Shown here: positions 5,703 to 26,478 of the stretch, one piece after another
Position numbering within the stretch: position 1 is the first letter of the stretch
Layout: the number at the start of each line of letters is the position of its first letter
Position numbers and translations under genes: made by a program
DNA from: Candidatus Omnitrophota bacterium
Lineage (GTDB): Bacteria; Omnitrophota; Gorgyraeia; Gygaellales; Profunditerraquicolaceae
Reading direction: 5' to 3'
Assembly: GCA_026387265.1 (NCBI GenBank)
Contig: JAPLLZ010000033.1
Coordinates: forward strand, 1 to 46,808
Length of the DNA: 46,808 bases
Notes under the pieces: generated by a model
Seen by the model: the letters and a program-made list of their open reading frames with translations, nothing else
Told to the model about the DNA's origin: nothing
The model's database searches: none

Positions 5703-7206
5703 CTATCTTCTTAGTTGCTCTTTATCAATTTTACCGGCGCGGTTTTTAGGAAGCGTGGAACAAAACTCAAAATAATGCGGAATCTTAAAGTGCGCCAGGT
5801 GCTGGCGTAAAAAATAACGCAAATCTTCTACAGAAATATTTTTACCTTCTTTCATTACCACAAAGGCCTTGGGCACTTCTCCTCTTAATTTATCGACTAT
5901 TCCCACTACCGCCGTCTCAGCAATATCCGGATGTTTTTGCAAGCTGGCTTCTACCTCCGGCTCAAAAACAATTTCGCCGCCAACTTTAATCATTTCTTTT
6001 TTCCTGCCGACAATATAAAGAAATCCCTGCGCGTCAAACCTGCCTAAATCTCCGGTATAAAACCAACCATCACGAATTGACGCCTGGGTCAAAGCCTCAT
6101 CCTTAAAATACCCGGCGGTCACCACCCAGCTTTTTACGGCTACTTCGCCAACTGCACCCACAGGCAATTCCTCTGCGGAATCAGAAAATACCTTTACTTG
6201 AATCCAGGGAGCCGGACGACCAACACTTTCAATATTTTTTGACCCCATCGGTAAAACTACAGTCGGAGCATTAGTCTCCGTCAACCCCCAACCATTTAAT
6301 AAACAGGCCTGCGGGCAGAATTGCGCAAACCTGCGTAAGGCCTCCGGAGAATTTGATGCGCCAAAAGTAACAATCCAACGCAAGCTGGATAAATCAAATG
6401 TCTCAAATTCTTTCAGCTGTAAAAGCGCATAATACATCGAGGGAACAATCCAGAAAAAATTAACTTTATAATTCTGGATATTCCTTAAAAAATCCAGCGG
6501 CATGAACCGCTCCATCAACACCAGGGTTAAACCAAAAGTAATCGTGTTCTGGATATAAATTAAGCCTCCTGAATGTGAAAATGGTAAAGCGCATAACGCT
6601 GTATCCTTGGGCCCCAAATCAGAATTTACAAAAAAAGACATGGATTTCGGCGGAGCATCCAGTTGAGCGAAACTAATCAAAACCCCCTTGGGCTTACCAG
6701 TTGTCCCTGAAGTATAAAAAATTATGGCGCAGTCATCTTCCTTAATCTGAACCTGAACCGGCTGGCTTGTTTGCGCAGCTAACAGCTCTTCAAAACTTAA
6801 AGCATGTTCATCTTTTGACTGACAGGAAATAATATTTTTTAATAAAGGAAGTTTAGCTTTAAGTGTGGCAAACGAAATATTCGCTTTATGCTTGGTAACC
6901 AGAATTTTTGCTTCAGAATGGCTCAAGCAGGAAAGTATCTCATCTTCCGTAAGCATGAAATCTAAAGGCACGCTGCAGGCACCAATTGACCAGGTGGCCA
7001 GGTAACTTACAATATATTCCGGCCAATTAGGAAGATAGATGGCTACTTTATCGCCAGGCTGCACTCCCAACTTAAGCAATGCCTGGCTAAAAGCAAAAAC
7101 TTTATCTTTTAATTGTACAAAGGAAATTTGATCCTGACGAAAAATAACCGCGGGTTTCTGCGTATACTTTTTGGCACACTCTTCTAGGACTTTAACAACA
7201 TTCACT
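5703..7206 (-). CDS. AMP-dependent acyl-CoA synthetase/ligase
   Basis: YTSGTTGKPKGV, GWGLTETNAP, FYTGDLG, GRKKEMIKVGGE motifs. The listed ATG at 7271 lies in an intergenic palindrome; a GTG start near 7206 (VNVVKVLEECAKK) is more likely. Confidence 0.88.
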
Positions 7207-7283
7207 CCGCACCTTCTTGTGTACGAACACAACACCCGCGCAATACCAGTCTGCGCGGGGTGTCTATTCAATTGTTTTGTTCA

Positions 7284-8792
7284 TCAGAATCCATACCAAT
7301 AGTTAACCAATGGCTTACCTTCTTCAGACTGATCGATAATCATACTCTTAATGCGGACATATTCCAGAAAACCTTCTTTTCCTAGCTCTTTGCCAAAACC
7401 GCTCTGTTTAAACCCCCCGTATGGCAATTCGTTATAAAACATGCCATAAGTATTAATCCAGACTGTCCCGGCATTTAACTTTCCGGCTAGCTCTTGCGCT
7501 AAATATAGGTCTTTGGTCCAAATGCAGGCGGCCAAACCAAAATCTACGCTATTGGCTAAATTTGTCGCTTCATCGGAACCGGAAAATTTATGAATCAATA
7601 CTACCGGCCCAAAAACCTCTTCTCTGAATATATGCGAATGCACTCCGACGTCTACTAATACAGTCGGCTCAAAAAAATAACCGTTTTTTAGTTCCGCATT
7701 TTCCGGAATTTTACCGCCACAAACTACCTTGCCGCCTTCTGCTTTTGCTTTTTCAATATAGGCAATTACCTTTTTACGCTGGGCATCACTGATTAACGGG
7801 CCCATCTGCGTTTCGTGGTTATCCGCCAAACCTAATTTCAGGCGCTTAGCTTTCTGCACAAAACTTTCCAGAAAACTATCGTAAATTCCCTCCTGGACAA
7901 AAATCCGAGACATCGCTGTACACATCTGCCCTTGATTAAGAAAAATGGAGGTCAAAGAACTATTTACCGCTACATCCAAATCCACATCATTAAAGATTAA
8001 ACTAGCAGATTTACCTCCCAACTCCATGGTCATTTTCTTTACATTTTTGGAAGAATACTGCAGAATTTGCTTTCCTATCTCGGTACTACCGGTAAAAGAA
8101 ATCATATCCACCCGCTTATCTTCGCAAAGCGCCTGGCCAATCTTGGCTCCACTACCATTAATCACATTAAATACTCCTGCCGGCAGCCCGGTAGTATGGA
8201 TAATCTTGGCCAGCTCTAAAACCGTCAGCGGCGTCAGGCTGGAAGGTTTTAAAATAATGGTATTGCCTGCGGCTAAAGCGGAAGCTAATTTCCAACAGGC
8301 AATTAAAAGCGGGTAATTCCAGGGAACAATCAAAGCTACTACCCCCATCGGCTCGCGGAGTATCTTGCCTTTTGCCTCCTCAGATACGCTTAGTTCTTCA
8401 CTATTCAAATAATCAATAAAATTATTGGCGATAAATTCAAATGTTTTAGCGCTGGAAGGAATATCCATAAAGGTTGTCTCTTTAATCGTCTTACCGGTAT
8501 TTTGCATTTCCAGAGATGCCAGTAACTGCGCATTATCCAAAATTCCCTGGGCAATCCGGAAGATAAAATCTTTACGCTCAACTAAAGAAAATTGCGGCCA
8601 GGATCCCTGGTCAAAAGCATTCCGGGCGCTGGATAAAGCCAGCTCCAACTCGGTTGGCGAAGCTAATGAAACTTCCGCAATTACTTTACCGGTTGAAGGA
8701 TTAATAATATTCTGCTTCTCCAGCGTTTCCATAAATTGACCATTAATATAAAGCGGATATTTAGAAATCATCTGTCCTCCTTCGCCCGCCAT
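7284..8792 (-). CDS. NAD(P)-dependent aldehyde dehydrogenase (true start probably MISKYPLYINGQF near 8771)
   Basis: FTGSTEIGK, MELGGKSASLIF, NQGQMCTAMSR, EEVFGPV. Confidence 0.93.
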   Translation of the reverse strand: MAGEGGQMISKYPLYINGQFMETLEKQNIINPSTGKVIAEVSLASPTELELALSSARNAFDQGSWPQFSLVERKDFIFRIAQGILDNAQLLASLEMQNTGKTIKETTFMDIPSSAKTFEFIANNFIDYLNSEELSVSEEAKGKILREPMGVVALIVPWNYPLLIACWKLASALAAGNTIILKPSSLTPLTVLELAKIIHTTGLPAGVFNVINGSGAKIGQALCEDKRVDMISFTGSTEIGKQILQYSSKNVKKMTMELGGKSASLIFNDVDLDVAVNSSLTSIFLNQGQMCTAMSRIFVQEGIYDSFLESFVQKAKRLKLGLADNHETQMGPLISDAQRKKVIAYIEKAKAEGGKVVCGGKIPENAELKNGYFFEPTVLVDVGVHSHIFREEVFGPVVLIHKFSGSDEATNLANSVDFGLAACIWTKDLYLAQELAGKLNAGTVWINTYGMFYNELPYGGFKQSGFGKELGKEGFLEYVRIKSMIIDQSEEGKPLVNYWYGF

Positions 8793-8825
8793 AAATCGTG
8801 GCTGGCTGCGGAGGATTTCGCTAGT

Positions 8826-9833
8826 TCAAGACTTATGGTGCTCAATCTTTACCTCCCGGAATAGGGCGAACAGCCGGTTAAAAGGAACATACCATTTGGA
8901 AAGCTGACCCATTTGGCCGCTTAATTTCATTTTACCCTGGGTAACCGCTACAAAAGAATCCAGCTTGCCTAAAAACACCTGCTCCCATACCGGTGCCGGA
9001 GCAGAAATCATAAAAGGCGCATCGCTATCTGTATCTAATTTTACAATTTTACCTTCTTCAAAATTAAATTTATAAACTTCGCTTGTGCCATCAAGCTTAA
9101 TCGCTAATTTTACCGTAAGCCCTAACTCTTTACCCTTTTGAGCGATAAATGTATCCTGATTCACTAAATCCACGATTGCCTGGATATGCTCCCGGCTAAA
9201 CATCTTGTAGGCCGGCTGATTACGTTTTAAATCATCTTTTAAAGCAGTATCTAAATCATCTAAAATATCTTTATCTAACAGCCGGGCAACTGCAGCACTT
9301 TTTACTGCTTCCTCCAACGCTTCAGTAATCGCTAAAGCATCCTGAAATTTTTCCGCAATCGCCACTGTCCCGTGATTTTTTAAAACCACTAAATTATTTG
9401 TTTTTAGTGCGGCAATTACCGGCTCAGTCTGTGTTACCGTCGGAGTTTCCTGAGGAATTACCGGAATATCCCCCAGGTAAAATTTAGTTTCAAAGCTCAT
9501 CGCTTTAAGTGTTTTAGCCACCGCAAAATACCCGTTAATTAGTGGCGGATGGCAATGTATAACCACTTTGGCAGAAAAATTTTTATAAACTAAACTGTGC
9601 AGTGGTAATTCCGAGCTGGGTTTAGACTCTCCGGCAAACTTACCATCTGCTAAATTTACCTTAACAATATCGCTTTCTTTTAATTGACCTAAGAATGATC
9701 CACTGGTAGTAATTAAAATATTCTCCTGATCTAGACGGCCGCTGATATTGCCAGACTTAGCCACAGCCAAACCTGCCTCATACAGCCTTTTACCCACCTG
9801 AATTATTTCTGCGCGCAGCTCTTGTTCAGTCAA
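8826..9833 (-). CDS. class II aldolase/adducin domain fused to a C-terminal SCP2-like domain
   Basis: SGNISGR, SSELPLH, VVIHCHPP, NHGTVAI zinc aldolase motifs; C-terminal ~110 aa SCP2-like (VAVTQGKMKLSGQMGQLSKW). Confidence 0.8.
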   Translation of the reverse strand: MTEQELRAEIIQVGKRLYEAGLAVAKSGNISGRLDQENILITTSGSFLGQLKESDIVKVNLADGKFAGESKPSSELPLHSLVYKNFSAKVVIHCHPPLINGYFAVAKTLKAMSFETKFYLGDIPVIPQETPTVTQTEPVIAALKTNNLVVLKNHGTVAIAEKFQDALAITEALEEAVKSAAVARLLDKDILDDLDTALKDDLKRNQPAYKMFSREHIQAIVDLVNQDTFIAQKGKELGLTVKLAIKLDGTSEVYKFNFEEGKIVKLDTDSDAPFMISAPAPVWEQVFLGKLDSFVAVTQGKMKLSGQMGQLSKWYVPFNRLFALFREVKIEHHKS

Positions 9834-10748
9834 TTAAACCCCCAGATAGATATGTTCAGTAATTAATTTTGCCGGCGTAACATCAAAAGCCGTATAGTAT
9901 GCTTTCACTTCCTTAGGTGCTAAATACATTCCCTGATAAATTTTCAGTTCATCGTCCGGGCGGATTTCAATTTTAATCTCTTTACCAGTCTTTAATTTTG
10001 ATGCCGGGGGACAGATCGCATAGAAGGGAATCTTAAAATATTTAGCGACTACAGCAATCTGATAAGTGCCGATTTTATTGGCAATATCCCCGTTTAAGGT
10101 CAAGTGATCCGCACCTACAATAACTTTAGTAACTTTACCTAATGATAACAGATACGCCACCATATTATCGGTAATAATCGTTACATCAAAACCTGCGCGC
10201 ATAATTTCCCAGGCAGTCAAACGGGAGCCCTGCAGATATGGGCGGGTTTCCGTAACATAAAAGCTTATTCTTTTACCCTGCTCCTTGGCAAGCTGAGCAA
10301 TCAACGGCATTAATCCGCTAATATTACAGTGTGTCAGAATTACATCCCCATCTTTAAGCAGTGCGGCAGTTTGATGTGCCTGCTGGATGCGCTTACCCTT
10401 AAGCATCTCTAAAAAGCCTAAAATACTTTTCTCTAAAGGTGCGCCGCTTTTTTCCATCCCTAAAACCATCTCAGTTAAGAATTTAAAGGATAATGTCGGA
10501 CGGGTAGCATTAATCGCCTCAGCTACTTTGGCTAAATTTTTATTCTGCCGTTTACTCAAAATAAAAGTATACATCACCAAAAGCACCTGGCCTACAGCGC
10601 GGGTTTTCATTTCCTTAATCGCCTTACAAGCCTGCTGATAGTTCTTGGCCTTAATATAGGTAAGCTTCTGGGGAAGTTGTGTCTCATCCAGAATATAAAT
10701 CGTATTACCTTTTAATTGTATCGGCCAAAATAATGGAGAAAATTTCAT
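9834..10748 (-). CDS. MtnA/eIF2B-alpha family sugar-phosphate isomerase-like protein
   Basis: DVILTHCNISGL (catalytic Cys region), IVGADHLTLNGDIANKIGTYQIAVVAKYFKIPFYAICPPASK (catalytic Asp region). Confidence 0.8.
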   Translation of the reverse strand: MKFSPLFWPIQLKGNTIYILDETQLPQKLTYIKAKNYQQACKAIKEMKTRAVGQVLLVMYTFILSKRQNKNLAKVAEAINATRPTLSFKFLTEMVLGMEKSGAPLEKSILGFLEMLKGKRIQQAHQTAALLKDGDVILTHCNISGLMPLIAQLAKEQGKRISFYVTETRPYLQGSRLTAWEIMRAGFDVTIITDNMVAYLLSLGKVTKVIVGADHLTLNGDIANKIGTYQIAVVAKYFKIPFYAICPPASKLKTGKEIKIEIRPDDELKIYQGMYLAPKEVKAYYTAFDVTPAKLITEHIYLGV

Positions 10749-10859
10749 TTAAACTCCCTTAAATTCTTTATTACGGGTGGCACGTAGGCGGGTCACCTGC
10801 CGCGCGCAACGTAAGTGAGCACGGTAGGGTGCCGCAGTGACAGGACCCGTAATTTTAAT

Positions 10860-11609
10860 CTACTTTCCTTCTAACTTCTTAACCAACTCCAACGCAATCT
10901 TAATTAAATTACTCTCTGCCATATAATAAAGCGGATTCATAAAACCCATTTCACCGGTAATTACATTATCACTTACTGCTAATATTGAGCAGGCTTTAAT
11001 ATTATAGGTCTGACAAATCGTTAACAGGGTTGAAGAAACCATATCCACTGCGCGGGCGCCTTCTTTACGCTTAGCTTCCACCAACTCGCGGGTTTCCCGC
11101 AATAAAGCATCCGTAGTCCAGCTCTTACCGCGGTGTATAGTTAACCCCATACCCTGGCCAATCTCAAATAAAAGGTCAGAAAGCTTTTTATCACTTACTG
11201 TCTTAAAATCTTTGTCTACATAATACGGAGTTACTCCATCGCCGCGGATGACCTCATCCACCACAAACAAATCCCCGACTTTAATATTCTCATCCATTGA
11301 TCCGCAGGTACCGACGCGGATAATATTCTGAATACCGGCATTACACATTACTTCCGTAGTAATCGAGGTATCGGTAGAAAATCTCCCACCGTTAATGCCA
11401 GTAACCTTAATGCCTTCATAAGTACCGGTATACATCGTATACTCCATGAATGAAAAATTCTTTACCGGCTTTTCGATTTTTTTCATTAATACATCCAGCC
11501 GATCACGCGGACCAGGCACAATTGCATATTTACCTACATCCTGCGGCCTCAACTGCACCATCTCCGTCAAATCTCTTCCTGTTAAATGAACATTCTTTTG
11601 CATCTGCAT
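10860..11609 (-). CDS. nucleoside phosphorylase (uridine/purine phosphorylase-like, PNP_UDP family)
   Basis: IVPGPRDRLDVL, NIIRVGTCGSM, AVDMVSSTLLTIC, AVSDN. Confidence 0.87.
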   Translation of the reverse strand: MQMQKNVHLTGRDLTEMVQLRPQDVGKYAIVPGPRDRLDVLMKKIEKPVKNFSFMEYTMYTGTYEGIKVTGINGGRFSTDTSITTEVMCNAGIQNIIRVGTCGSMDENIKVGDLFVVDEVIRGDGVTPYYVDKDFKTVSDKKLSDLLFEIGQGMGLTIHRGKSWTTDALLRETRELVEAKRKEGARAVDMVSSTLLTICQTYNIKACSILAVSDNVITGEMGFMNPLYYMAESNLIKIALELVKKLEGK

Positions 11610-14835: not shown

Positions 14836-15612
14836 CTATTTCCCCGGGTGCTTCTGCTGGAATGGAATAACCGGAGCAGTCCAAGGTGTTGTTTGATTAA
14901 TTACCGCAATCTCTAAAGGACAAACATTCGCCGGTTGGGTCAAAGCAAAACGTACGGCATTCTCAATTGCCTCGGTCGTCATTAAACGCGAAGTATCATT
15001 GGTAATTTCCTGTAATTTGCCGGTTAAGTCTGTATCAGTTACTCCGGGCAAAATTGAAGTTACCTTGATTCCCTTATCGCGCAACTCCCAGAATAATGCT
15101 TTAGAAAATGCTCTTAACCCAACCTTGAGGGAACTGTAAACAATAAAATTTCTCGGCAAAGGATCACATAGGGTTGATCCAGAGACCATATTAATAATCG
15201 CTCCACTCTTATCTTTGATCATATCATTGATCACTAAACGGATAAGCCGGACATAACCTAAATAGTTGGTATGGGCTAAACGTTCGAAATCTTCAATCGG
15301 CTGATCCTGAAAAGGATACTGGCTGGATACCCCGGCATTATTAATCAGGATATCAACCTGGCCAAACTTTTTCTTAACGCTGTTAACTAAATTCTCCAGA
15401 TCTTCAAGTTTAGTAACATCACAAACCACCGGCAGAACCTGAACCTTAAACTTAGCGGCAATTTCTTTGGCTGTTTCCTCCAAAGCCTCCTGGCCACGGG
15501 CGCCAATCACTAAATTTATGCCTAAGCTAGCGGCAGTGCAAGCAAGCGCCTTGCCAATACCGCGGCTGGCACCGGTAACAATCGCTGTTTTTCCCTTTAA
15601 GTCTACACTCAT
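14836..15612 (-). CDS. SDR-family ketoreductase
   Basis: TGASRGIG, NNAGVS, GS...YSSLK motifs; likely start MSVDLKGKTAIV near 15612. Confidence 0.88.
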   Translation of the reverse strand: MSVDLKGKTAIVTGASRGIGKALACTAASLGINLVIGARGQEALEETAKEIAAKFKVQVLPVVCDVTKLEDLENLVNSVKKKFGQVDILINNAGVSSQYPFQDQPIEDFERLAHTNYLGYVRLIRLVINDMIKDKSGAIINMVSGSTLCDPLPRNFIVYSSLKVGLRAFSKALFWELRDKGIKVTSILPGVTDTDLTGKLQEITNDTSRLMTTEAIENAVRFALTQPANVCPLEIAVINQTTPWTAPVIPFQQKHPGK

Positions 15613-15635
15613 CACTCCTCCTTGTTTACCTAAAC

Positions 15636-15720
15636 AACACCGCCGCAATTTTCGCAGCATGGCGAACACCGGCGCAATTCAAATAAACTCCGGGTGCCCC
15701 CATACTAAGCGGCGGGTGTT
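15636..15720. repeat. palindromic element family B (copy 2), nested inverted repeats
   Basis: AACACCGCCGC...GCGGCGGGTGTT outer arms; inner TTCGCagcatgGCGAA then ACACCGGCGCAATTC...CCGGGTG. Confidence 0.75.
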
Positions 15721-16841
15721 ATATTTTTATTACCAATCAAACCGCTAAATAATAACAAAACTAATAACCCCGTACCAAAAATAATAAAACCTAAAGTAAA
15801 ACTTTTCTGCATAATCAAGCCGCCTAAACTTACGCCCAGGCCGCCGGAAATAAAACGCACCCCGCTATTTAAGCTAGCCGCCTCATTTAACAGCTCCGCC
15901 GGTAAATCTGTAAGCATCGTAGCCAAACCCACATGGTTAAATGTCCAGCTTAAGCCCCAGAAAATCATCACCAAGCCCAGCATGGCTAAGGGCAACTTTA
16001 ACAAAAGCAAAAAAATACAGATAATCATGCCCAAAATACCCAGGCCGACTACTTTTTGCCGACCGGCTTTATCCGCCAGGCTACCACCTAAAAATTCTCC
16101 AAATATACCACTTAAGCTGGTTAAAGTAATCAGCATGCTAATGGTAAACTGATTTAATAAGAACTGGGTGGAAAAATAAACCCCCAGCCACTGCTGTACG
16201 GCATGATAAATCAAGCTGACTAAAAAGATATAAATAAAAATTCGGATTACTTTTTTATCTTTAAAAGCCTGCAAATATCCAAAACGAAACCGGCTTAGGT
16301 CTTCTTTAAAAGTCGGCAGGCGAAAATACATGACCACCCACAAGAGCAGCCCGGCAACTGCCGGAATGATAAAAATCAGCCTCCAGGGAATTAACCCGCT
16401 TAAAAATAATCCCAGCAAAGAAGCAACAAAAGTAGAGCCGAAAAATATCCCGACATAAGTTCCCCGGTTCTCCTGACGGATATGTTTAGCAATCAGAATT
16501 AAGCCCAGAGGAATTACCGAGGCGCCGAAAATCCCCATTAAAAACCTGGCCCAAAAAAGCATCTTAATATTTAGCGCAAAACCGGCTAAAAGATTAGCCA
16601 GCGAAAATAAAAATATGCAGATTAACTCAACCCGCCGCGCATCAAAAGCACGCACCAGCGGCCCATAAAGCAATGCGGCCAGGCCGTAAGGAAGCATATA
16701 GAGCCAGATTATTTTACCGACGATAAACTGAGAAAGAGCAAACTCTGCGGCAATCGAGGGAATTAAAGCTGCACAGGCAGCGACATTAAAGGATAAAACC
16801 GATCCCTCTAAGCAAAATATGGCAAATGTGGTTTTTTTCAC
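15705..16841 (-). CDS. MFS transporter (probable exporter)
   Basis: 378 aa, multiple TM segments; GGSLADKAGRQKVVGLG. Confidence 0.88.
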   Translation of the reverse strand: MKKTTFAIFCLEGSVLSFNVAACAALIPSIAAEFALSQFIVGKIIWLYMLPYGLAALLYGPLVRAFDARRVELICIFLFSLANLLAGFALNIKMLFWARFLMGIFGASVIPLGLILIAKHIRQENRGTYVGIFFGSTFVASLLGLFLSGLIPWRLIFIIPAVAGLLLWVVMYFRLPTFKEDLSRFRFGYLQAFKDKKVIRIFIYIFLVSLIYHAVQQWLGVYFSTQFLLNQFTISMLITLTSLSGIFGEFLGGSLADKAGRQKVVGLGILGMIICIFLLLLKLPLAMLGLVMIFWGLSWTFNHVGLATMLTDLPAELLNEAASLNSGVRFISGGLGVSLGGLIMQKSFTLGFIIFGTGLLVLLLFSGLIGNKNITPAA

Positions 16842-17326
16842 TTGCCGGCTGCAGTTTCAATAACTTTCTTAAAAATCAATAAATTATCTTTAGAATGCTT
16901 ATTAATGAAACCTTCTACCTGCTCATCGCTGAATTTAGCCTGAGCATCCATTTTAAAATGCTGAATCCAAGTCAACTCAACACCATCTGGCTTGGGCGTA
17001 TATAGCCAGATAATCTTCATATACTCAAATGGAAATTTGGGCTCATGACGTTCTGAATAAGTAAACCCCGTTAGAAGTCCCGCGGCGCGGGGCGCCACTT
17101 CTAATGGGGTAAACAAGTTATCCTTAAACAACAGCCTCCAGGAAACCCAGGATTTATCTTCATCATCGGTCAGCCGGAAGGTAATTTTATTGGCTTCTTT
17201 TTTCAAAATTTCGGCTTTTTTGTATTCACTACCAAATAACTCTGTCCAGCGGGGAATATCATTAGAAATGTCAAAAACTAAATCATAGGGTGCGTTGATC
17301 AATATCGAATTACATGTATGCCCCAT
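16838..17326 (-). CDS. SRPBCC polyketide aromatase/cyclase (TcmN-like)
   Basis: SILINAPYDLVFDISNDIPRWTELFGSEYKKAEIL...WVSWR...PFEYMKIIWLYTPKPDGVELTWIQHFKM resembles TcmN ARO/CYC; overlaps the MFS gene by 4 nt. Confidence 0.85.
   Translation of the reverse strand: MGHTCNSILINAPYDLVFDISNDIPRWTELFGSEYKKAEILKKEANKITFRLTDDEDKSWVSWRLLFKDNLFTPLEVAPRAAGLLTGFTYSERHEPKFPFEYMKIIWLYTPKPDGVELTWIQHFKMDAQAKFSDEQVEGFINKHSKDNLLIFKKVIETAAGK
17061..17114. repeat. palindromic element lying in frame within the aromatase/cyclase gene
   Basis: GTAAACCCCGTTAGAAGT (17061-17078) ... ACTTCTAATGGGGTAAAC (17097-17114), 15 of 18 positions complementary; encodes LFTPLEVAPRAAGLLTGF. Confidence 0.82.
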
Positions 17327-17447: not shown

Positions 17448-18234
17448 CAACCACTCTGGCCCAGGCTGCGCCAGTATTTTTTATACGTATCGGAAAACAA
17501 AGTATTTTAAAACCAAAGTTCGGTAAGTTTTCCAGATTCGCCAGGCGTTCAATATGGATAAATTCTTTTTGCCGGCCGTAAAAATGCGCCGGATAAAATG
17601 TTTTTGGGTCTTTAGTTTTAAGAAATTCTGCCAGCATAAACCGGTATGGCCGGTCAATCCCCATCGTGTCTACGCCAAATATTTTAATTCCTTTATCTAA
17701 AAGATACTTAATTGCTGAGGGGTCAACTCCGGGGTAATCCGCAAAATATCTGGCTTGTCCATATAACTTATCCGCACCAGTATGCAATAACACAATATCC
17801 AAAGGCTTAAGCTGATAGTTTATGGTAGCTAAGGCTTCCCGGATATCCTGCTCCTTAATTACTTCGTTGGGCTTCTTGTGGCGAAAGTCAAGCTTTACGC
17901 CTGGCTGATAACAATATTCTAAAGGAATCTCATCGGCGGTTTTAGCAGGCCGGCCTTCAGATTGGGAACCGTAATGAAAAGAATAGTCCAGATGCGTGCC
18001 GATATGCACCGGAGCATGCACAATTTCTAAAGACAAAAACTCTTCCTCCGGCAACTCTTCTTTCTTGATAATCCGCTGACCGAGAATATATTTAATCTTG
18101 CCCAGGAAAGTTTTCCCCATAATTACCCGGTTAAATTTTTCTACCCCGGCTTTATGGGTTACTCTTTCGATATCGACCTTGTGCACCTCAAAAGCGGTCT
18201 CATCAATAGGTAAGCTTAGATCAATGATCTTCAC
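17434..18234 (-). CDS. cyclase family protein (PF04199, kynurenine formamidase-like)
   Basis: IIDLSLPIDE, HIGTHLDYSFHYG (HxGTHxD), DIVLLHTGAD, GVDTMGID. Confidence 0.87.
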   Translation of the reverse strand: MKIIDLSLPIDETAFEVHKVDIERVTHKAGVEKFNRVIMGKTFLGKIKYILGQRIIKKEELPEEEFLSLEIVHAPVHIGTHLDYSFHYGSQSEGRPAKTADEIPLEYCYQPGVKLDFRHKKPNEVIKEQDIREALATINYQLKPLDIVLLHTGADKLYGQARYFADYPGVDPSAIKYLLDKGIKIFGVDTMGIDRPYRFMLAEFLKTKDPKTFYPAHFYGRQKEFIHIERLANLENLPNFGFKILCFPIRIKNTGAAWARVVALLD

Positions 18235-18467
18235 TTGGCTATTTTCCCCTCGATATTGCTGACGATATCATTAATCGTGGAATTTTTAGTAATCTCTTTC
18301 GGGCTAAGCTTGACGCCAAAGGCTTTTTCCAGAGCGATCACCGATTCCACCATTTCCGTTGAATCCACTCCGATACTATCAATCAAGGTAGATTCGTCTT
18401 TTAATTCCTCAATCTTAACTTTCAGAAGATTACTTAATACTTCTTTTATTTTTGTCTTCGTATCCAT
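18231..18467 (-). CDS. acyl carrier protein
   Basis: 78 aa; IDSIGVDSTEMVESVIALEKAFGVKLS with the phosphopantetheine Ser region; overlaps the downstream cyclase by 4 nt. Confidence 0.92.
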   Translation of the reverse strand: MDTKTKIKEVLSNLLKVKIEELKDESTLIDSIGVDSTEMVESVIALEKAFGVKLSPKEITKNSTINDIVSNIEGKIAK

Positions 18468-18646: not shown

Positions 18647-20150
18647 TTATATTTGCACTTCACCCTTAGTGGCGGCAGCTTCCCACTTACCTACTCCATC
18701 CATAACATCTTTAAAACAAAGTTTGGCTAGCGGATCAAAGTTGCTCTCCATAATTCTATTAATTCTGCCGGGCTTTGAAAAAAATTCACGCATACACCAG
18801 GAACCCAGCCGGCCTAGGTCTTCGGTGGTCAAATGATCCGTGGGAATAACCGGATGTAAAAAATCCCACTGGCTGAAATCTACTTTTTTAGGATCAATCC
18901 AGTGCTTCTTTAAAGCAATCCTCCACATTGGAGAATTCGGAGCAGGAGTTACATAACCTACCCACAAAACATCCGGATCAACCTGATCAGTAAATTCAAA
19001 ACGCTGTTTTACAATCTCTTCAGTATCATAATCAAAACCCATCATGATATCGGCAACAATCGCAATATCATTGCGGCGGAACATATCAATGGTTTGCTTA
19101 ATCTGATCGATCGTTATGCCTTTGGCGATTTTCTTTAACTCTGATTGTGTGGTTACTTCAATACCAAAAACACCCATGAATAAACCGTTCTCCTTCATCA
19201 GAGGCAGGATGGATTCGCAATTTACCCAATCAATCGCCCGGCCTAAAGATACCCACTTAATCGGATTATTCGATGCTTTTTTAAGTTCACAGAACTTCTG
19301 CACTCTTTTAATTTGCCGCTTTCTTAAGTTCGCAAAACTTTTGCACTCTTTTCGGATCAACATTAAAATTATCATCCTGAATCACCACAACTTTAACTCC
19401 GTACTTTCTATGTAAAAGATTTAATTCTTCCATTACTCTTTCCGGAGATTTAGCGCGCCATTTCAAAAAGTCCGAAGGCGAACGCGGATCAAACTGATCC
19501 CACTCATAACAAAAAGTGCATGCTGAAGGACAGCCACGGGAAGTAACCATATCCACAAATGGTTTCCAATAGGTATGGCCGACATATTTATCCATCGGGA
19601 ATAAATCATACGCCGGCAAAGGAAGTTTATCTAGATCTTCCATCAGCGGTTTATGCGGGCCCATAACAATTGCCCCATCGATGCGGCTGGTTACTCCACC
19701 CACATCTTTAAGCGGTTTATTCTTATCAATTGCCTCAATCAAATCTCCAAAAGATTCCTCTTCCCCCATCACCACAAAATCAACTGCCGGATTTTCTTCT
19801 AAGGTCGGTACAGGCATCGCCGAATACCATAACCCACCCAAGATTATTTTGGTTCTGGGCAGTGCTTTTTTAATCCCTACTGCCGCATCTTTAAAATGGC
19901 GCAGGACTCCGTATCCGCCATAACCATGCAGCTGCTCCCCCATCACCACAACATCAGGATTCTTAGCCTTTACCTGCTCTACTAATTGCTCCATCGGTAT
20001 TTGATCAGCTTTACCATCAATCACCGCGACATCTTCATAACCTCTTTCCCGGACATAGGCCGCCCAGTGCGCATACAGTTGATTTGGAGAGCGGTGTATC
20101 CCATGCGTTGCCCAGGCGCCGACTTTAGGCATCACAAATAATATTTTCAT
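18647..20150 (-). pseudogene. B12-binding radical SAM protein (BchE-like superfamily) disrupted by a 43-nt imperfect tandem duplication
   Basis: ORF 19308-20150 (N-terminus, CPSACTFCYEW) ends ...KRVQKFCELKKAAN; ORF 18647-19375 restarts KRVQKFCELKKASNNPIKW. 1504 nt minus 43 = 1461 = 487 codons, so removing one copy restores one frame. Confidence 0.85.
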
Positions 20151-20305: not shown

Positions 20306-21535
20306 TTATGCTTTCTCTACCACCAACACGGAATTAATTCCGCCTCGTCCGCGTGAAATAATCAACGACTTATTTATTTTATATTCCCTGGACTCTTTAG
20401 CCACATAATTTAAATTATTTTGAGCCGGTTTATCTAAATTTAATGTTGGCGGGACTAAGTTATGCTCCATCGCCAAAAAAGCAATAATCATATCCAATGC
20501 TCCGGAAGCACCCAATAAATTTCCAAACATGGATTTCGGGCAACTTACCGGAATTTTCTTTAAATTGTTTCCAAAAACCAATTCCAGAGCTTTAATTTCG
20601 GAATTGTCCCAAAGCTCAACTGCCAAGCCATCTAAACTAATATAACCGATTTCTTCGACTGTTGCTTTCGCATCACTAAGTGCCATCTTAATCGCCCGGG
20701 CCAACTCTTTTCCGTCGCTGGCACAATTAATCCTATTTACTCCGTCGCAAGTAGTGCCATATCCGCTGATTAATCCTAAAATATTTGCTTGGCGATCTTG
20801 AGCACGCTTAATACTTTCCATCACCACAATCCCTGCGCCTTCGCCAATTACAAAACCACTGCGTGCCTGATCAAACGGACGATAAGCTGCTTGCGGATCA
20901 TTATTATTCTTGGATAATGCGCCATAGGTATTGCAACATAATAAAGCATAAGGAGAAACCGGCGCTTCCATTCCCCCGCCTAAAATCATATTTAGTTTAT
21001 TTTTAGCTAAAACTTTCCGGGCATAACCCAACGCCATCAAGGAACTGGCGCGATCACTGACTACGGTTTTACTAAACCCCTTAATTCCATAATAAATAGA
21101 AACCTGTCCTTGAGGAGCCGCCGGAAACCAGGCGCTGGCCATATAAGGAGAAACGCCTTCCCGGCCTTCCAAATATAAATCTCTTAATTCAGTCTCTGCA
21201 TAAAGCCAGCCGCCAATAGCGTTACCTAAAAAGATACCGACCAAATTAGGATCTTCGTTCTTAATATCAATCCCGGCATCCTGCAAAGCCAACTCCGCCG
21301 CCACCAGCGCCATATGTGAAAAAGCATCAATCTTCTTCAATAATCTTTCCGATATGTGGCTATACTTTTCTAAGTCATCAATCTGCCCGGCGATATGCGC
21401 AGGATAAAGGCTGGCATCAAAACGCGTAATCTTTTTAATAAATGAACGGCCGCTTTTAATATTGGCCCAAAATTGCCGCTTGCCAATCCCCGAAGGGCTA
21501 ACTACCCCGATACCTGTAACTGCTATCTTTTCCAC
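20306..21535 (-). CDS. type II PKS ketosynthase beta subunit / chain-length factor
   Basis: KS fold; SAWFPAAPQGQVSIYYGIKGFSKTVVSDRASSLMALGYAR, with the active-site Cys replaced by Arg; SLDGLA and MFGNLL where the catalytic His residues would be. Confidence 0.88.
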   Translation of the reverse strand: MEKIAVTGIGVVSPSGIGKRQFWANIKSGRSFIKKITRFDASLYPAHIAGQIDDLEKYSHISERLLKKIDAFSHMALVAAELALQDAGIDIKNEDPNLVGIFLGNAIGGWLYAETELRDLYLEGREGVSPYMASAWFPAAPQGQVSIYYGIKGFSKTVVSDRASSLMALGYARKVLAKNKLNMILGGGMEAPVSPYALLCCNTYGALSKNNNDPQAAYRPFDQARSGFVIGEGAGIVVMESIKRAQDRQANILGLISGYGTTCDGVNRINCASDGKELARAIKMALSDAKATVEEIGYISLDGLAVELWDNSEIKALELVFGNNLKKIPVSCPKSMFGNLLGASGALDMIIAFLAMEHNLVPPTLNLDKPAQNNLNYVAKESREYKINKSLIISRGRGGINSVLVVEKA

Positions 21536-21597: not shown

Positions 21598-22866
21598 TTA
21601 TCCACTATACCTTTTAAAAATAAGCGAAGAATGTATCCCGGAAAAACCGCTTGAGGTTTTCATAATCATATTGACCTTTTTTTGGATTGCCTGATTAGGA
21701 ATATAATACAAATCGCATTGTGGATCTTTCTCCTCCTGATTTATCGTAGGAGGCAGAAAAAAAAAAAAAAAAATCATTGAAACAATGGTCATCTCCACGG
21801 CATTAGCCGCAGCCAAAGGATGCCCAATCATGGATTTAAGCGAGCTAATCGGCAGCTTATAAGCATAATCCCCGAAAATCGCCTTATAAGCATTACTTTC
21901 AAAAATATCATTCATGCGCGTGCTTGAGCCGTGGGCATTAATATAATCAATATCCGTAGGCAAAACATCAGCATCTTTTAACGCTAAGCCAATACAAGTT
22001 TCCATCGCTCGGCCATCGCTGGGTAAATCCGTCATATGGAAAGCATTGCAGCTGGTGCCAAAACCTAAAATTTCGCAATAAATCGGCGCATTGCGTTTTA
22101 AAGCGTGATTTAATTCTTCCAAAACCAAAATCCCGGCACCTTCCCCCAAAACAAACCCGTCCCGTTTATTATCGAAAGGGCGTGACGCTTTTTGCGGGTC
22201 ATCATTATGTACCGATAAAACATTGACTACATCAAAAGCCCCGAAAGTAATCGGGGTAAGCGGTGCTTCGGCTGCCCCGCAAATCATTACATCCTGTTCT
22301 CCGTCTTGAATACTCTCTAAACCAAATCCTAACGAATCTGTACCAGCGGTACAGCCGGTAGAAATAGTATTACAGTTACCTTTTAAACCGTAACGTGCAC
22401 TAAGCTCAATGGAAGGAGTATTAAACATTGCCGCATCATAAAGATCCGCGCGGACCAAAGCCGGATTAATCGGCTGCTTACCGTCTTCAGTAACCAAAGC
22501 AAACTCTTCCTCCATATATTTTGTCCCACAGATAGCGTTAGCCAAACAAACACCAATACGCTGGAGGTTTTCTTTAGAAAAATCTAATTTACTATCTTCT
22601 ATCGCCATTTTACCGGCGGCTACGCCAAATTGCACATAGCGGTCCATGCGCATAACCTCTTCATGGCTTAACCCTAATTTAAAAGGATCAAAATCCCTGA
22701 CTTCGGCGGCGATCTTAGTATTAAAAACGGAAACATCAAAACCATCAACTAAACGCACTCCGGATTTACCTGTAGAAAACCCCTCCCAGGCATTCTTTTT
22801 ACCAATGCCATTAGGTGAGATTACTCCAATACCAGTGACCACTACTCGTCTTTTTTCCATATCCAT
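21598..22866 (-). CDS. type II PKS ketosynthase alpha subunit
   Basis: NTISTGCTAGTDS (Cys), INAHGSSTRMND (His), SLKSMIGHPLAAAN (Lys/His); followed by the CLF-like gene. Confidence 0.92.
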   Translation of the reverse strand: MDMEKRRVVVTGIGVISPNGIGKKNAWEGFSTGKSGVRLVDGFDVSVFNTKIAAEVRDFDPFKLGLSHEEVMRMDRYVQFGVAAGKMAIEDSKLDFSKENLQRIGVCLANAICGTKYMEEEFALVTEDGKQPINPALVRADLYDAAMFNTPSIELSARYGLKGNCNTISTGCTAGTDSLGFGLESIQDGEQDVMICGAAEAPLTPITFGAFDVVNVLSVHNDDPQKASRPFDNKRDGFVLGEGAGILVLEELNHALKRNAPIYCEILGFGTSCNAFHMTDLPSDGRAMETCIGLALKDADVLPTDIDYINAHGSSTRMNDIFESNAYKAIFGDYAYKLPISSLKSMIGHPLAAANAVEMTIVSMIFFFFFLPPTINQEEKDPQCDLYYIPNQAIQKKVNMIMKTSSGFSGIHSSLIFKRYSG

Positions 22867-23003
22867 TTAAACTCTAAATCCTAAACTCGAAATCCTAAAC
22901 AAATCCTAAACCCAAAACTCAAAATTTAAAAACGTTAGTTTCGAGTTTCGAGTTTATAATTTTGGGTTTGTTTAGAGTTTAGTGTTTCGTGTTTAGGGTT
23001 TAA
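22866..23003. repeat. long AT-rich imperfect palindrome, family D copy 2
   Basis: TTTAAACTCTAAATCCTAAACTCGAAATCCTAAACAAATCC...GGGTTTGTTTAGAGTTTAGTGTTTCGTGTTTAGGGTTTAAG. Confidence 0.85.
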
Positions 23004-23598
23004 GATTATCCTCCTTTGCTCTAGTCACCTTAAAAACAATATTGCCGCCGTCCGGACAAGTGACCGTGTCAATGGAATCCGGATTAGGCATAAAGAAAAA
23101 TTTAGCTCCAAAATTTAAAGCAAACAGCGCCGGGAAAGCAGTATGAAAAGCTGCGCCACAAAACCCGGGAATACATTTTAACCCCTGCGTTTCCCATTTA
23201 TCCCCTATCTTATACCCAAAGGCACATTTACCTTTTGCCTGCACTACTTCTAAAGTCATTTTTTTAGGATTCGGGCCTTTGTGATCTGGGTCACGCGGAA
23301 TAACTTCCAGCTTGCCCTGCTTATCTAAAATCTCAGCCTTAAACTCGAGCTTGCCCCCATCAGGACAGATAACTAATAACGAACGTTGATTATCACGAAA
23401 CCCGAATTTTGCCCCAAAGCTTAAAGCATAGACAATTGGAAAAAGAGCATGCGCCAGGCCCAAACAAAAATGTTTGGGTGCGTGCGTAAAATCTTCTAGA
23501 ATAATCTCATCTCCGATTTTATAGCCGTGGTAACACTCTCCCATAACCTGGGTAACAGTAAGCTTTAAGCGCGGAAAAGGTGTTTTTACTTCATCCAT
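22993..23598 (-). CDS. tandem-duplicated TIGR04076-like protein
   Basis: Two ~90-aa repeats, each GxCxxGYKIGD...C...A(L/F)FP...ALxFGAKF...CPDGG. Confidence 0.65.
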   Translation of the reverse strand: MDEVKTPFPRLKLTVTQVMGECYHGYKIGDEIILEDFTHAPKHFCLGLAHALFPIVYALSFGAKFGFRDNQRSLLVICPDGGKLEFKAEILDKQGKLEVIPRDPDHKGPNPKKMTLEVVQAKGKCAFGYKIGDKWETQGLKCIPGFCGAAFHTAFPALFALNFGAKFFFMPNPDSIDTVTCPDGGNIVFKVTRAKEDNLKP

Positions 23599-23600
23599 TT

Positions 23601-24605
23601 TTAAACCAGCTCCTTAGTTCTTTGAATTAAATCTTCTTTACTAAAAAATCTACGGTTGGCTTCCACTTCATGCACCATTTCCACTAAAATTTTATTCAAA
23701 GGCAATTGCAGATTATGCTCCTGCCCCAGGCGTACAAATTCACCGTTAATATAATCAATCTCCGAAAGCTTACCCCGCATGATACTTTGCAATATTGATC
23801 CATACAACGGATCCTTACTTAAATTCCTCATTAAGCCTGAAAAAATCTCCGCCGCATGAACGCTGGGCATAGAAGTAAATTTGGTGATATTCTCTACCGG
23901 AAACCCAGGTAGAGAAACTAAATCTATGCCGATTTTATCAAAAGCTTCAAAAGCCTCTTTCCAGATAGCGATGCTGATCCGGCTAACCGTTAAATCACTA
24001 AAAACGTCCTGCATGCTTTTGCCTAGAATGGCCGGCAGGCAGTTATTGGCATTTACAAAAATTTTTAAATACTTCATCCCCTGGATATCCTGGCTGATAA
24101 TCGTCGGGAATGCCTTATCCAAAACTAAACTTAAAGCAATCAACGATTCAGTAGGATGGGAATTAAAAAAGTTGCCGATTATCCAGCTGCCTTCGAAATT
24201 ATGCACCACTTTGCCGGGCTCAAAATTAGTGGCGCCAAACATAACAATGCTAGAAACAATCTTCTCAGGCGGAAGATACTTTGCCGCTATTTTATCTGCC
24301 TGCACACCATTTTGAGTAGTAAGTAATAAAGAGCTGTGCATCAAACGAGCGCTGTCTGCCAGCGCCGAATCGATATCTTGAGTTTTAGTGGTTAAAATTA
24401 CTAAATCCGGGATATAGTTTAAGGTTTCGGCGATGCTTACGCGCACCGACCGATTGCCCCTAACCCCGGAGATAATAATACCATTGTCATTAATTGCTTT
24501 CACACTGGGGCCGCGGCCAACTAAAGTTACTTCTTCACCTTTTTGCTTAAGATAACCTGCGACTAAACAACCAATGGCTCCGGCGCCAATAACCGCAATA
24601 CGCAT
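23601..24605 (-). CDS. ketopantoate reductase-family (ApbA/PanE) dehydrogenase
   Basis: MRIAVIGAGAIGCLVAGYLKQKGEEVTLVGR; LTTKTQD; TTQNG; C-terminal ApbA-type helical domain. Confidence 0.85.
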   Translation of the reverse strand: MRIAVIGAGAIGCLVAGYLKQKGEEVTLVGRGPSVKAINDNGIIISGVRGNRSVRVSIAETLNYIPDLVILTTKTQDIDSALADSARLMHSSLLLTTQNGVQADKIAAKYLPPEKIVSSIVMFGATNFEPGKVVHNFEGSWIIGNFFNSHPTESLIALSLVLDKAFPTIISQDIQGMKYLKIFVNANNCLPAILGKSMQDVFSDLTVSRISIAIWKEAFEAFDKIGIDLVSLPGFPVENITKFTSMPSVHAAEIFSGLMRNLSKDPLYGSILQSIMRGKLSEIDYINGEFVRLGQEHNLQLPLNKILVEMVHEVEANRRFFSKEDLIQRTKELV

Positions 24606-24874
24606 TATTTTTTAATGTTTTTTGGAAAACCGTACTTTTTATAATCAAACCCATTCTGGCCAAGCAAACGAATCATCATGCTGTAGAATGGGGAGGGAAC
24701 ATCGGAGAAAAAAGCAGCCACCACATCCTGTTCTTGCACACAAGATGCACTACGTTTAACCGCAAACTCTTCAGCCTGACGCTTAACCACGGATTCGGCA
24801 ATATGGCGGTGAAAAACAGGAATCTTGGAAATTAAAACTTTGAATTTATTTTCCGTTTCAGCTTCCCAAATCAT
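24605..24874 (-). CDS. small PCP_red-like protein (resembles the C-terminal domain of light-independent protochlorophyllide reductase subunit B)
   Basis: MIWEAETENKFKVLISKIPVFHRHIAESVVKRQAEEFAVKR pattern; overlaps the downstream gene by one base. Confidence 0.5.
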   Translation of the reverse strand: MIWEAETENKFKVLISKIPVFHRHIAESVVKRQAEEFAVKRSASCVQEQDVVAAFFSDVPSPFYSMMIRLLGQNGFDYKKYGFPKNIKK

Positions 24875-24909
24875 TTTTACTTTCTTTAAAACCTGCTAAG
24901 AGCTGTTTC

Positions 24910-24962
24910 TATATAGTAAAATTTTACTATATAATTTTAGTTAAAATGGGCTTTTTTGTCAA
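24910..24962 (-). promoter_or_regulatory. sigma70-like promoter with adjacent palindromic operator upstream of the PKS operon
   Basis: Minus strand: TTGACA (24962-24957), 17-nt spacer, TAAAAT (24939-24934), then perfect 24-bp palindrome TATATAGTAAAATTTTACTATATA (24933-24910). Confidence 0.82.
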
Positions 24963-25018
24963 GGGAATTAATCACCTGACAAATAGAATATAATCCGATA
25001 CTTTTACTCTAAAATAAC

Positions 25019-25534
25019 TTAAATTTTCTTAATCAGTGAGCTCAAAAAACTGGATTCAGCATGTAACAGGCAAAGATTATGCTCCATAATCCGAAGCAGC
25101 GGCAAAGAATTCTTAAGCTTTTTGGAATCCGACATCTCTCTTATTCCAGAAGATATTTTAGCTAAGATTTCTAATCTTTTTTTAAGCCTACGCCGAGCTA
25201 GGGCAGGTTTCATAAAACTTAAAAAATACAAGCTAAGATCCAAAGTAAACTGCGGACGTTTAAAATCTAAAATGTTGCGGTTAAGCAGTAATTCAAAACG
25301 TTTTTTACCTTTAGCGGTTAAGCCGTAAACAAGGCGTGGCGGCCTTTTGCCTTTTATAACTGTATGCTTGGCCAACAGGCCTTTTTTTTCAAGAATTCTT
25401 AAAGGATAATATATTGATTTTAACTGGACACCGGCGAACAAAGCAAGGATTTCGCGGACTTTAACTTTAATTTCATAACCATGTTTTGGGCTTTGCCGCA
25501 GCAGACCTAATAGGATTAACTCCTGGTCAATCAT
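25019..25534 (-). CDS. PadR-family transcriptional regulator
   Basis: [24 protein letters not shown]...[17 protein letters not shown]...[18 protein letters not shown]. Confidence 0.85.
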
Positions 25535-26478
25535 CCTGTAACACCCATTGCCCTAAACTTCTTATACCTGGACTTAAGTAATTCCTCTTTACTCAACACA
25601 TCCAATTCTTTAAGATTCCTGACAATTACCTCTTTAACGTTGGCGGCGATTTTCTGCGCATCCCGATGCGCACCTCCTAATGGTTCCGGGACAACTTCAT
25701 CAATTAAACCCATTTTTAAAAGATCCGGCGCGGTAAGCTTTAAAACTTCCGCCGCCTGCGAGGCTTTGGCGCCATCTTTCCAAAGAATTGCCGCGCAGCC
25801 TTCCGGAGAGATAACAGAATAATAGGAATTTTCTAAAACTGCCAGCCGATCCGCTACTCCCACTCCTAAAGCACCACCTGAACCACCTTCTCCGATAACC
25901 ACTGCTACGATCGGAACAGCAAAGCTTATCATTTCCCGTAAATTAAGCGCAATCGCATGTGACTGCCCACGCTCTTCAGCCCCAATCCCCGGATATGCTC
26001 CCGGCGTATCAATAAAAATCACAACCGGCAGACCAAATTCTTCCGCCATTTGCATTACCCGTAGCGCCTTACGGTAACCTTCAGGATGAGCACAACCAAA
26101 ATTACGTTTTAAGTTTTCTTTTGTATCCCGGCCCTTCTGGTGGCCAATCACCATAACCTTCCTTTTATCTATTTTGGCCAGGCCACAGATCATTGCTTTG
26201 TCATCGCTAAACAGCCGATCACCATGTAGCTCTACAAAATCGGACATAATCATACTGATATAATCTAAAGTATACGGCCGCTGGGGATGCCGGGCAAGCT
26301 GAACCTTTTGCCAGGCAGTAAGATTAATATAGGTATCTTTCTTTAATTGCGCCAACTTATCATCGAGCTTTTTAATCTCAGAGGACAAATCAATCTTTTT
26401 TTCAACCATAAAAGATTTGAGCTCTTGGATTTTTTTCTCTAACTCCACAACTGGTTTTTCAAAATCTAGTCCGGCCAT
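25531..26478 (-). CDS. accA: acetyl-CoA carboxylase carboxyltransferase subunit alpha
   Basis: 315 aa; [67 protein letters not shown]. Confidence 0.96.

Follow-up and report, generated by a model that had tools for sequence, protein, structure and literature searches.

Gene content of the locus

The locus was analysed on the minus strand of the window, which is the whole 46.8-kb stretch of DNA considered here. It starts with accA, encoding the alpha subunit of acetyl-CoA carboxylase (25531-26478). The stop of accA overlaps by 4 bp the start of a gene for a PadR-like repressor of 171 amino acid residues (25019-25534), and the same 4-bp overlap is present in nearly all order-level relatives that were read. 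Downstream of padR lie a promoter, a perfect dyad and then the first gene of the putatively controlled operon (24605-24874). It encodes a DUF2621/PCP_red-like protein of 89 residues that matches PF11084 just above the cut-off and PF08369 (PCP_red) below the cut-off. This gene is followed by those for a ketopantoate-reductase-like protein (ApbA/PanE, 23601-24605), a TIGR04076 family protein with two repeats (22993-23598), a FabF-like ketosynthase alpha with the cysteine in its GCTAG motif (21598-22866) and a ketosynthase beta that resembles a chain-length factor, the active-site cysteine being absent (20306-21535). The block continues with a B12-binding radical SAM protein (18647-20150), an acyl carrier protein (18231-18467), a putative cyclase of PF04199 (17434-18234), a Polyketide_cyc2/SRPBCC-like protein just below the cut-off (16838-17326), an MFS transporter (15705-16841) and, as its last gene, a short-chain dehydrogenase (14836-15669). 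All operon genes downstream of the dyad are co-directional, and the block keeps its order in relatives. Ladderane-type cluster calls exist for Omnitrophota (PMC9902471), and a search of the open-access literature turned up no regulator described for the cluster at hand.

Several details of the coding regions were recorded. In ketosynthase beta, SDRAS replaces GCTAG, as in a chain-length factor. The radical SAM gene is present in this assembly as two overlapping frames of 280 and 242 residues, whereas relatives have a single open reading frame of about 486 residues; the split is either a frameshift or an assembly error. At about 21700-21800, a T homopolymer gives ketosynthase alpha a run of five phenylalanines (IFFFFFLPPT), possibly by a local sequencing error; the beta paralogue reads AMEHNLVPPT. 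Genes for an acyl-CoA ligase, an aldehyde dehydrogenase, a class II aldolase, an MtnA-like protein and a nucleoside phosphorylase stand in a row at 5703-11609, which we take to resemble a DHAP-shunt or 5'-deoxyadenosine salvage set. Elsewhere, in other genomes, the operon predicted to be under operator control begins with genes of this set.

The promoter and the dyad

On the minus strand, the -35 element TTGACA (24962-24957) is separated by 17 bp from the -10 element TAAAAT (24939-24934), which directly abuts the 24-bp perfect dyad TATATAGTAAAATTTTACTATATA (24933-24910). The dyad is a predicted operator by its sequence and conservation, and its conserved 18-bp core is ATAGTAAAATTTTACTAT (24913-24930). 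The original prediction had described this arrangement correctly to the base, and its positions for the genes on either side of the dyad (stop of padR at 25019, start of the first gene at 24874) are right as well. Its placement of the dyad over the expected +1 agrees with the predicted transcription start, relative to which the dyad extends from about -6 to about +18.

The hexamers score 11 of 12, the top value among 30 promoter-like sites in the 14 kb scanned. About as many such sites (31.4) are expected there by chance, so the hexamers by themselves are not significant and carry little weight; the case against a chance promoter rests on the dyad and its conservation. Among perfect palindromes with arms of at least 8 bp, the dyad is the only one in the window; when 200 windows were simulated, a 12-bp arm came up a single time. 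The window contains no further match to the 24-mer with 3 or fewer mismatches, and shuffles gave none. A search of the genome for further copies, as proposed originally, was also carried out: with up to 3 mismatches allowed, the 1.56-Mb draft genome contains the 20-mer core just once.

Conservation of the site and the regulon behind it

The 20-mer was present with up to 2 mismatches in 88 of the 128 genomes of the order, the reversed control pattern in 1 of 128. At the class level, the operator and PadR were found together in at least nine families more. Throughout the order and the class, the 18-bp core lies just downstream of a TTGACA promoter.

For an unbiased set, 80 loci were fetched solely via the first-gene protein and not by the motif. 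The 18-mer with up to 2 mismatches was found within 350 bp upstream of the first gene in 68 of the 80 loci, and the reversed control motif had at least 5 mismatches at its closest in the same loci. At seven of the 12 site-less loci (G051, G048, G054, G039, G045, G049 and G040), the first gene is preceded by the acyl-CoA ligase or by other operon genes, and in six of these seven the operator is at the head of the ligase. Two further rows belong to G130, whose site sits elsewhere. One locus (G082) has a version with 4 mismatches at the first gene and an exact site before its ligase, and the last two are G063, which has a scaffold gap, and G126, described below.

The site was then compared in 81 promoters, a set that is partly motif-selected, 68 of 80 being the unbiased count. 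The 18-mer was exact in 67 promoters, had one mismatch in 12 and two mismatches in 2, and TTGACA was exact in 79 of the 81. Information was 1.7-2.0 bits at core positions 1-18 and mostly 0.02-0.4 bits, near background, in the flanks. An AAATTT block located about 14 bp upstream of the core is less strongly conserved and suggests a secondary half-site. The gap between the -10 element and the core was 0-16 bp in 77 of the 81 promoters. Distances from the -35 element to the core clustered at 32-33 and 42-44 bp, about one helical turn apart, and the site therefore keeps its helix face. Genus relatives that have the site downstream of PadR showed an identical core. Both partners have diverged in two genomes of family f2 (G035 and G042), where the operator has 2-3 mismatches and PadR is 41-42% identical.

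All 119 oriented sites among all fetched loci head one regulon with a varying leading gene, which is the PCP_red-like gene at 70 sites, the acyl-CoA ligase at 47, and the aldolase and the nucleoside phosphorylase at one each.

Two unusual arrangements were seen. In family f37 (G419 and G274; loci L335 and L336), two operators 25 bp apart lie between the acyl-CoA ligase and PadR, with one gene intervening. Loci L315 and L316 come from two families (G412 and G182) and have a common layout of open reading frames and an identical 98-bp stretch with the variant ATAGTAATATTTTACTAT. This stretch is either a mobile element held in common or contamination.

Linkage of the site to padR

At 42 of the 119 oriented sites, PadR was encoded no more than 300 bp upstream, and at 44 no more than 700 bp. 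In G372, G389, G294, G223, G238, G195 and G419, padR is directly upstream of the operator and away from accA. Because the adjacency persists where accA has left PadR, PadR follows the operator and not only accA.

PadR orthologues were found in 105 of the 128 order genomes, and the PadR-carrying relatives bear the label Candidatus Omnitrophota. Among 61 genomes with accA intact, 41 have PadR and the operator, none has the operator without PadR, 10 have PadR without the operator and 10 have neither; these genome counts cover related genomes and not independent events. Within the order, PadR is present in every operator-bearing genome with an assessable padR locus, and the operator is absent in all ten genomes that have an assembled accA locus without PadR. 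In the four order genomes with an operator but without PadR, accA is missing (G027, G031 and G097) or cut by a contig end (G075). In the class, PadR was found in 37 of the 41 operator-bearing genomes tested, compared with 6 of 19 in which no operator was detected. Of the four class genomes with an operator match but no PadR, three (G289, G412 and G182, the fourth being G316) have the match in non-operon contexts, where it looks like chance.

In G126, the operon is kept 8 kb away (first gene 60%, ketosynthase alpha 75%, ketosynthase beta 74% identity). The region from comM to accA is intact on one contig with the operon, and PadR is gone from beside accA. The operator was not found either, the best upstream match having at least 7 mismatches. 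G126 is the informative case of co-loss, in which PadR and the operator have both been lost and the operon kept. Across the genomes, the co-loss amounts to about six changes; the tree behind this number is weakly supported, and its well-supported branches force only one of them. A comparison of phylogenetically independent pairs had too few supported branches and was powerless.

Ten order genomes have PadR but no detectable operator. Most of them are without the operon or are themselves incomplete, and G063 has an assembly gap at this place. Since these genomes keep PadR, it may have other targets. PadR and the operator are also unlinked in some genus members and are 42 kb apart on one contig in G020. 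Where genus members have a type II secretion cluster beyond PadR, the operator has remained beside the operon and is unchanged, the two lying either tens of kb from PadR or on a different contig.

The PadR protein and its likeness to known systems

The protein belongs to the PadR family, with a PF03551 match of 50.5 bits against the curated Pfam cut-off of 27. Its AlphaFold model (pLDDT 87) has the PadR winged helix and long C-terminal helices at 110-135 and 144-170, which is the C-terminal helical region of subfamily 2. The best PDB matches in Foldseek were Rv0047c (TM 0.69) and the DNA-bound PadR of Bacillus subtilis, 5x11 (E 7e-8). In the recognition helix, S40, Y42, Y43 and L45 do not vary in either of two alignments, which reach down to about 40% overall identity, and P44 is invariant in one alignment and nearly invariant in the other.

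The consensus operator of PadR is ATGT-N8-ACAT (PMC5428041). The half-sites of the dyad, TAGT-AAAATTTT-ACTA, are inverted and 8 bp apart, which is the spacing of a PadR operator, but they read TAGT/ACTA in place of ATGT/ACAT and only the inner GT/AC agrees. The single genomic site is downstream of padR and not at the promoter of padR itself, so there is no sign of autoregulation.

Compared with the PadR/padC operator system of B. subtilis (5x11, 5y8t), the winged helix, the C-terminal helical dimerisation region and the 8-bp spacing of the half-sites are alike. The two proteins share about 22% identity, the half-site is ATGT there and xAGT here, and the target is a phenolic-acid decarboxylase there and a polyketide-type operon here. 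LmrR of Lactococcus lactis with its lmrCD operator is alike in the family, in the inner GT...AC and in having the site at the target promoter. However, LmrR belongs to the short proteins of subfamily 1, has a 10-bp spacing in its lmrCD site and represses its own gene too, whereas the single site here is downstream of padR (PMC5428041). Similar in the kind of target is SrcmRII/CmmRII, a PadR-like repressor of the chromomycin type II polyketide cluster in Streptomyces, whose disruption raises production (PMC5992853). There, a PadR-type repressor stands over a KS/CLF/ACP gene cluster, as is proposed here, though in a Streptomyces host and not in Omnitrophota. Repression of a type II polyketide cluster by a PadR-like protein is already known (PMC5992853), and the exceptionally conserved Omnitrophota pair would add a new one to the PadR repressor-operator systems.

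A model for the control of the operon

We infer that the dyad is very probably the operator through which the adjacent PadR binds and represses the cluster, since this best explains the co-occurrence, the recurrent adjacency and the co-loss including G126. The original prediction that PadR represses the locus via the dyad stands well as regards control, which is supported by adjacency, co-occurrence, co-loss and the geometry of the half-sites; repression is the natural reading of the position of the site. A PadR dimer would set its two recognition helices on the TAGT/ACTA half-sites, 8 bp apart, and would sit over the transcription start of the KS/CLF polyketide-type operon. As the site lies downstream of the -10 element in almost all promoters, at the transcription start or early in the transcribed region, the bound PadR would block the binding or the escape of RNA polymerase. 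The ligand that would free PadR from the DNA is most plausibly a metabolite from the pathway of the operon or from malonyl-/acyl-CoA metabolism.

It is possible, though unlikely, that the dyad is bound by some other regulator (of the TetR, MarR or MerR type, for instance) that is conserved in the class and unlinked, PadR being a neighbour with the same phylogenetic history. Such a regulator would fit the several genus members that have other genes after PadR and the operator with the operon elsewhere, the departure of the half-site from the classical ATGT and the ten PadR-bearing genomes without an operator. However, in many families padR is repeatedly the gene that immediately precedes the operator, whether accA stands next to it or not, the operator was never seen with a loss of PadR where this was assessable, and no other regulator gene recurred beside the site in the loci read. 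That PadR binds the dyad as an activator or dual regulator is improbable. AphA (1yg2), there described as a virulence activator, is among the weaker Foldseek matches, but the site is downstream of the -10 element in nearly all promoters (by the 0-16 bp given above), and with a consensus -35 element no activator is needed. An action of the dyad in RNA, as a hairpin of the 5' leader affecting mRNA stability or translation, can practically be dismissed: the transcribed dyad does fold (-12.1 kcal/mol, z -2.9), but sequence changes within the core, such as ATAGTTAAATTTTACTAT and TTAGTAAAATTTTACTAT, occur singly and have no compensating partner, the majority bases flanking it (A/A, positions 0 and 19) are unpaired, the loop is invariant to the same degree as the stem, and no Rfam family was found in 24000-26000.

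The locus offers a candidate regulator-operator pair that is directly testable without culturing the organism, in a phylum with almost no genetics. With about one copy per genome, the 18-bp mark flags the head of a conserved and unexplained polyketide-type regulon in Omnitrophota. For the operator of a local repressor, it varies unusually little across the class, even in its spacer, and this eases the mapping of the regulon.

The ligand

A small aromatic ligand had been suggested to release PadR. This found no support here and rests on the name-giving PadR of the family, that of phenolic-acid decarboxylase. The conserved coupling of accA and padR would point just as well to an acyl-CoA or to a product of the pathway. 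Since padR overlaps accA and would gate a KS/CLF pathway consuming malonyl-CoA, we tentatively consider, as a long shot, that PadR senses malonyl-CoA or acyl-CoA/acyl-ACP. If true, an uncultured phylum would possess an analogue of the fatty-acid regulator FapR that has the PadR fold and acts through an operator nearly invariant across a class.

Genes adjoining padR in relatives

In several genus members (loci L060, L062, L074 and L075), type II secretion genes (ExeA-like, two for GspD, and GspE/F/G/K-like) lie between PadR and the operon. A small MerR/AlpA-like gene adjoins padR in the genus members L007, L011 and L044, and its promoters carry a related shorter dyad, TATAGTA-N2-TACTATA, just past the -10 element, for which PadR or the MerR-like protein is the candidate regulator. 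In other members of the family (L026 and L027), padR is followed by a MarR-like gene, and the promoter of this gene contains a AGTTAACATAGTTAA repeat that is probably the site of the MarR-like regulator itself.
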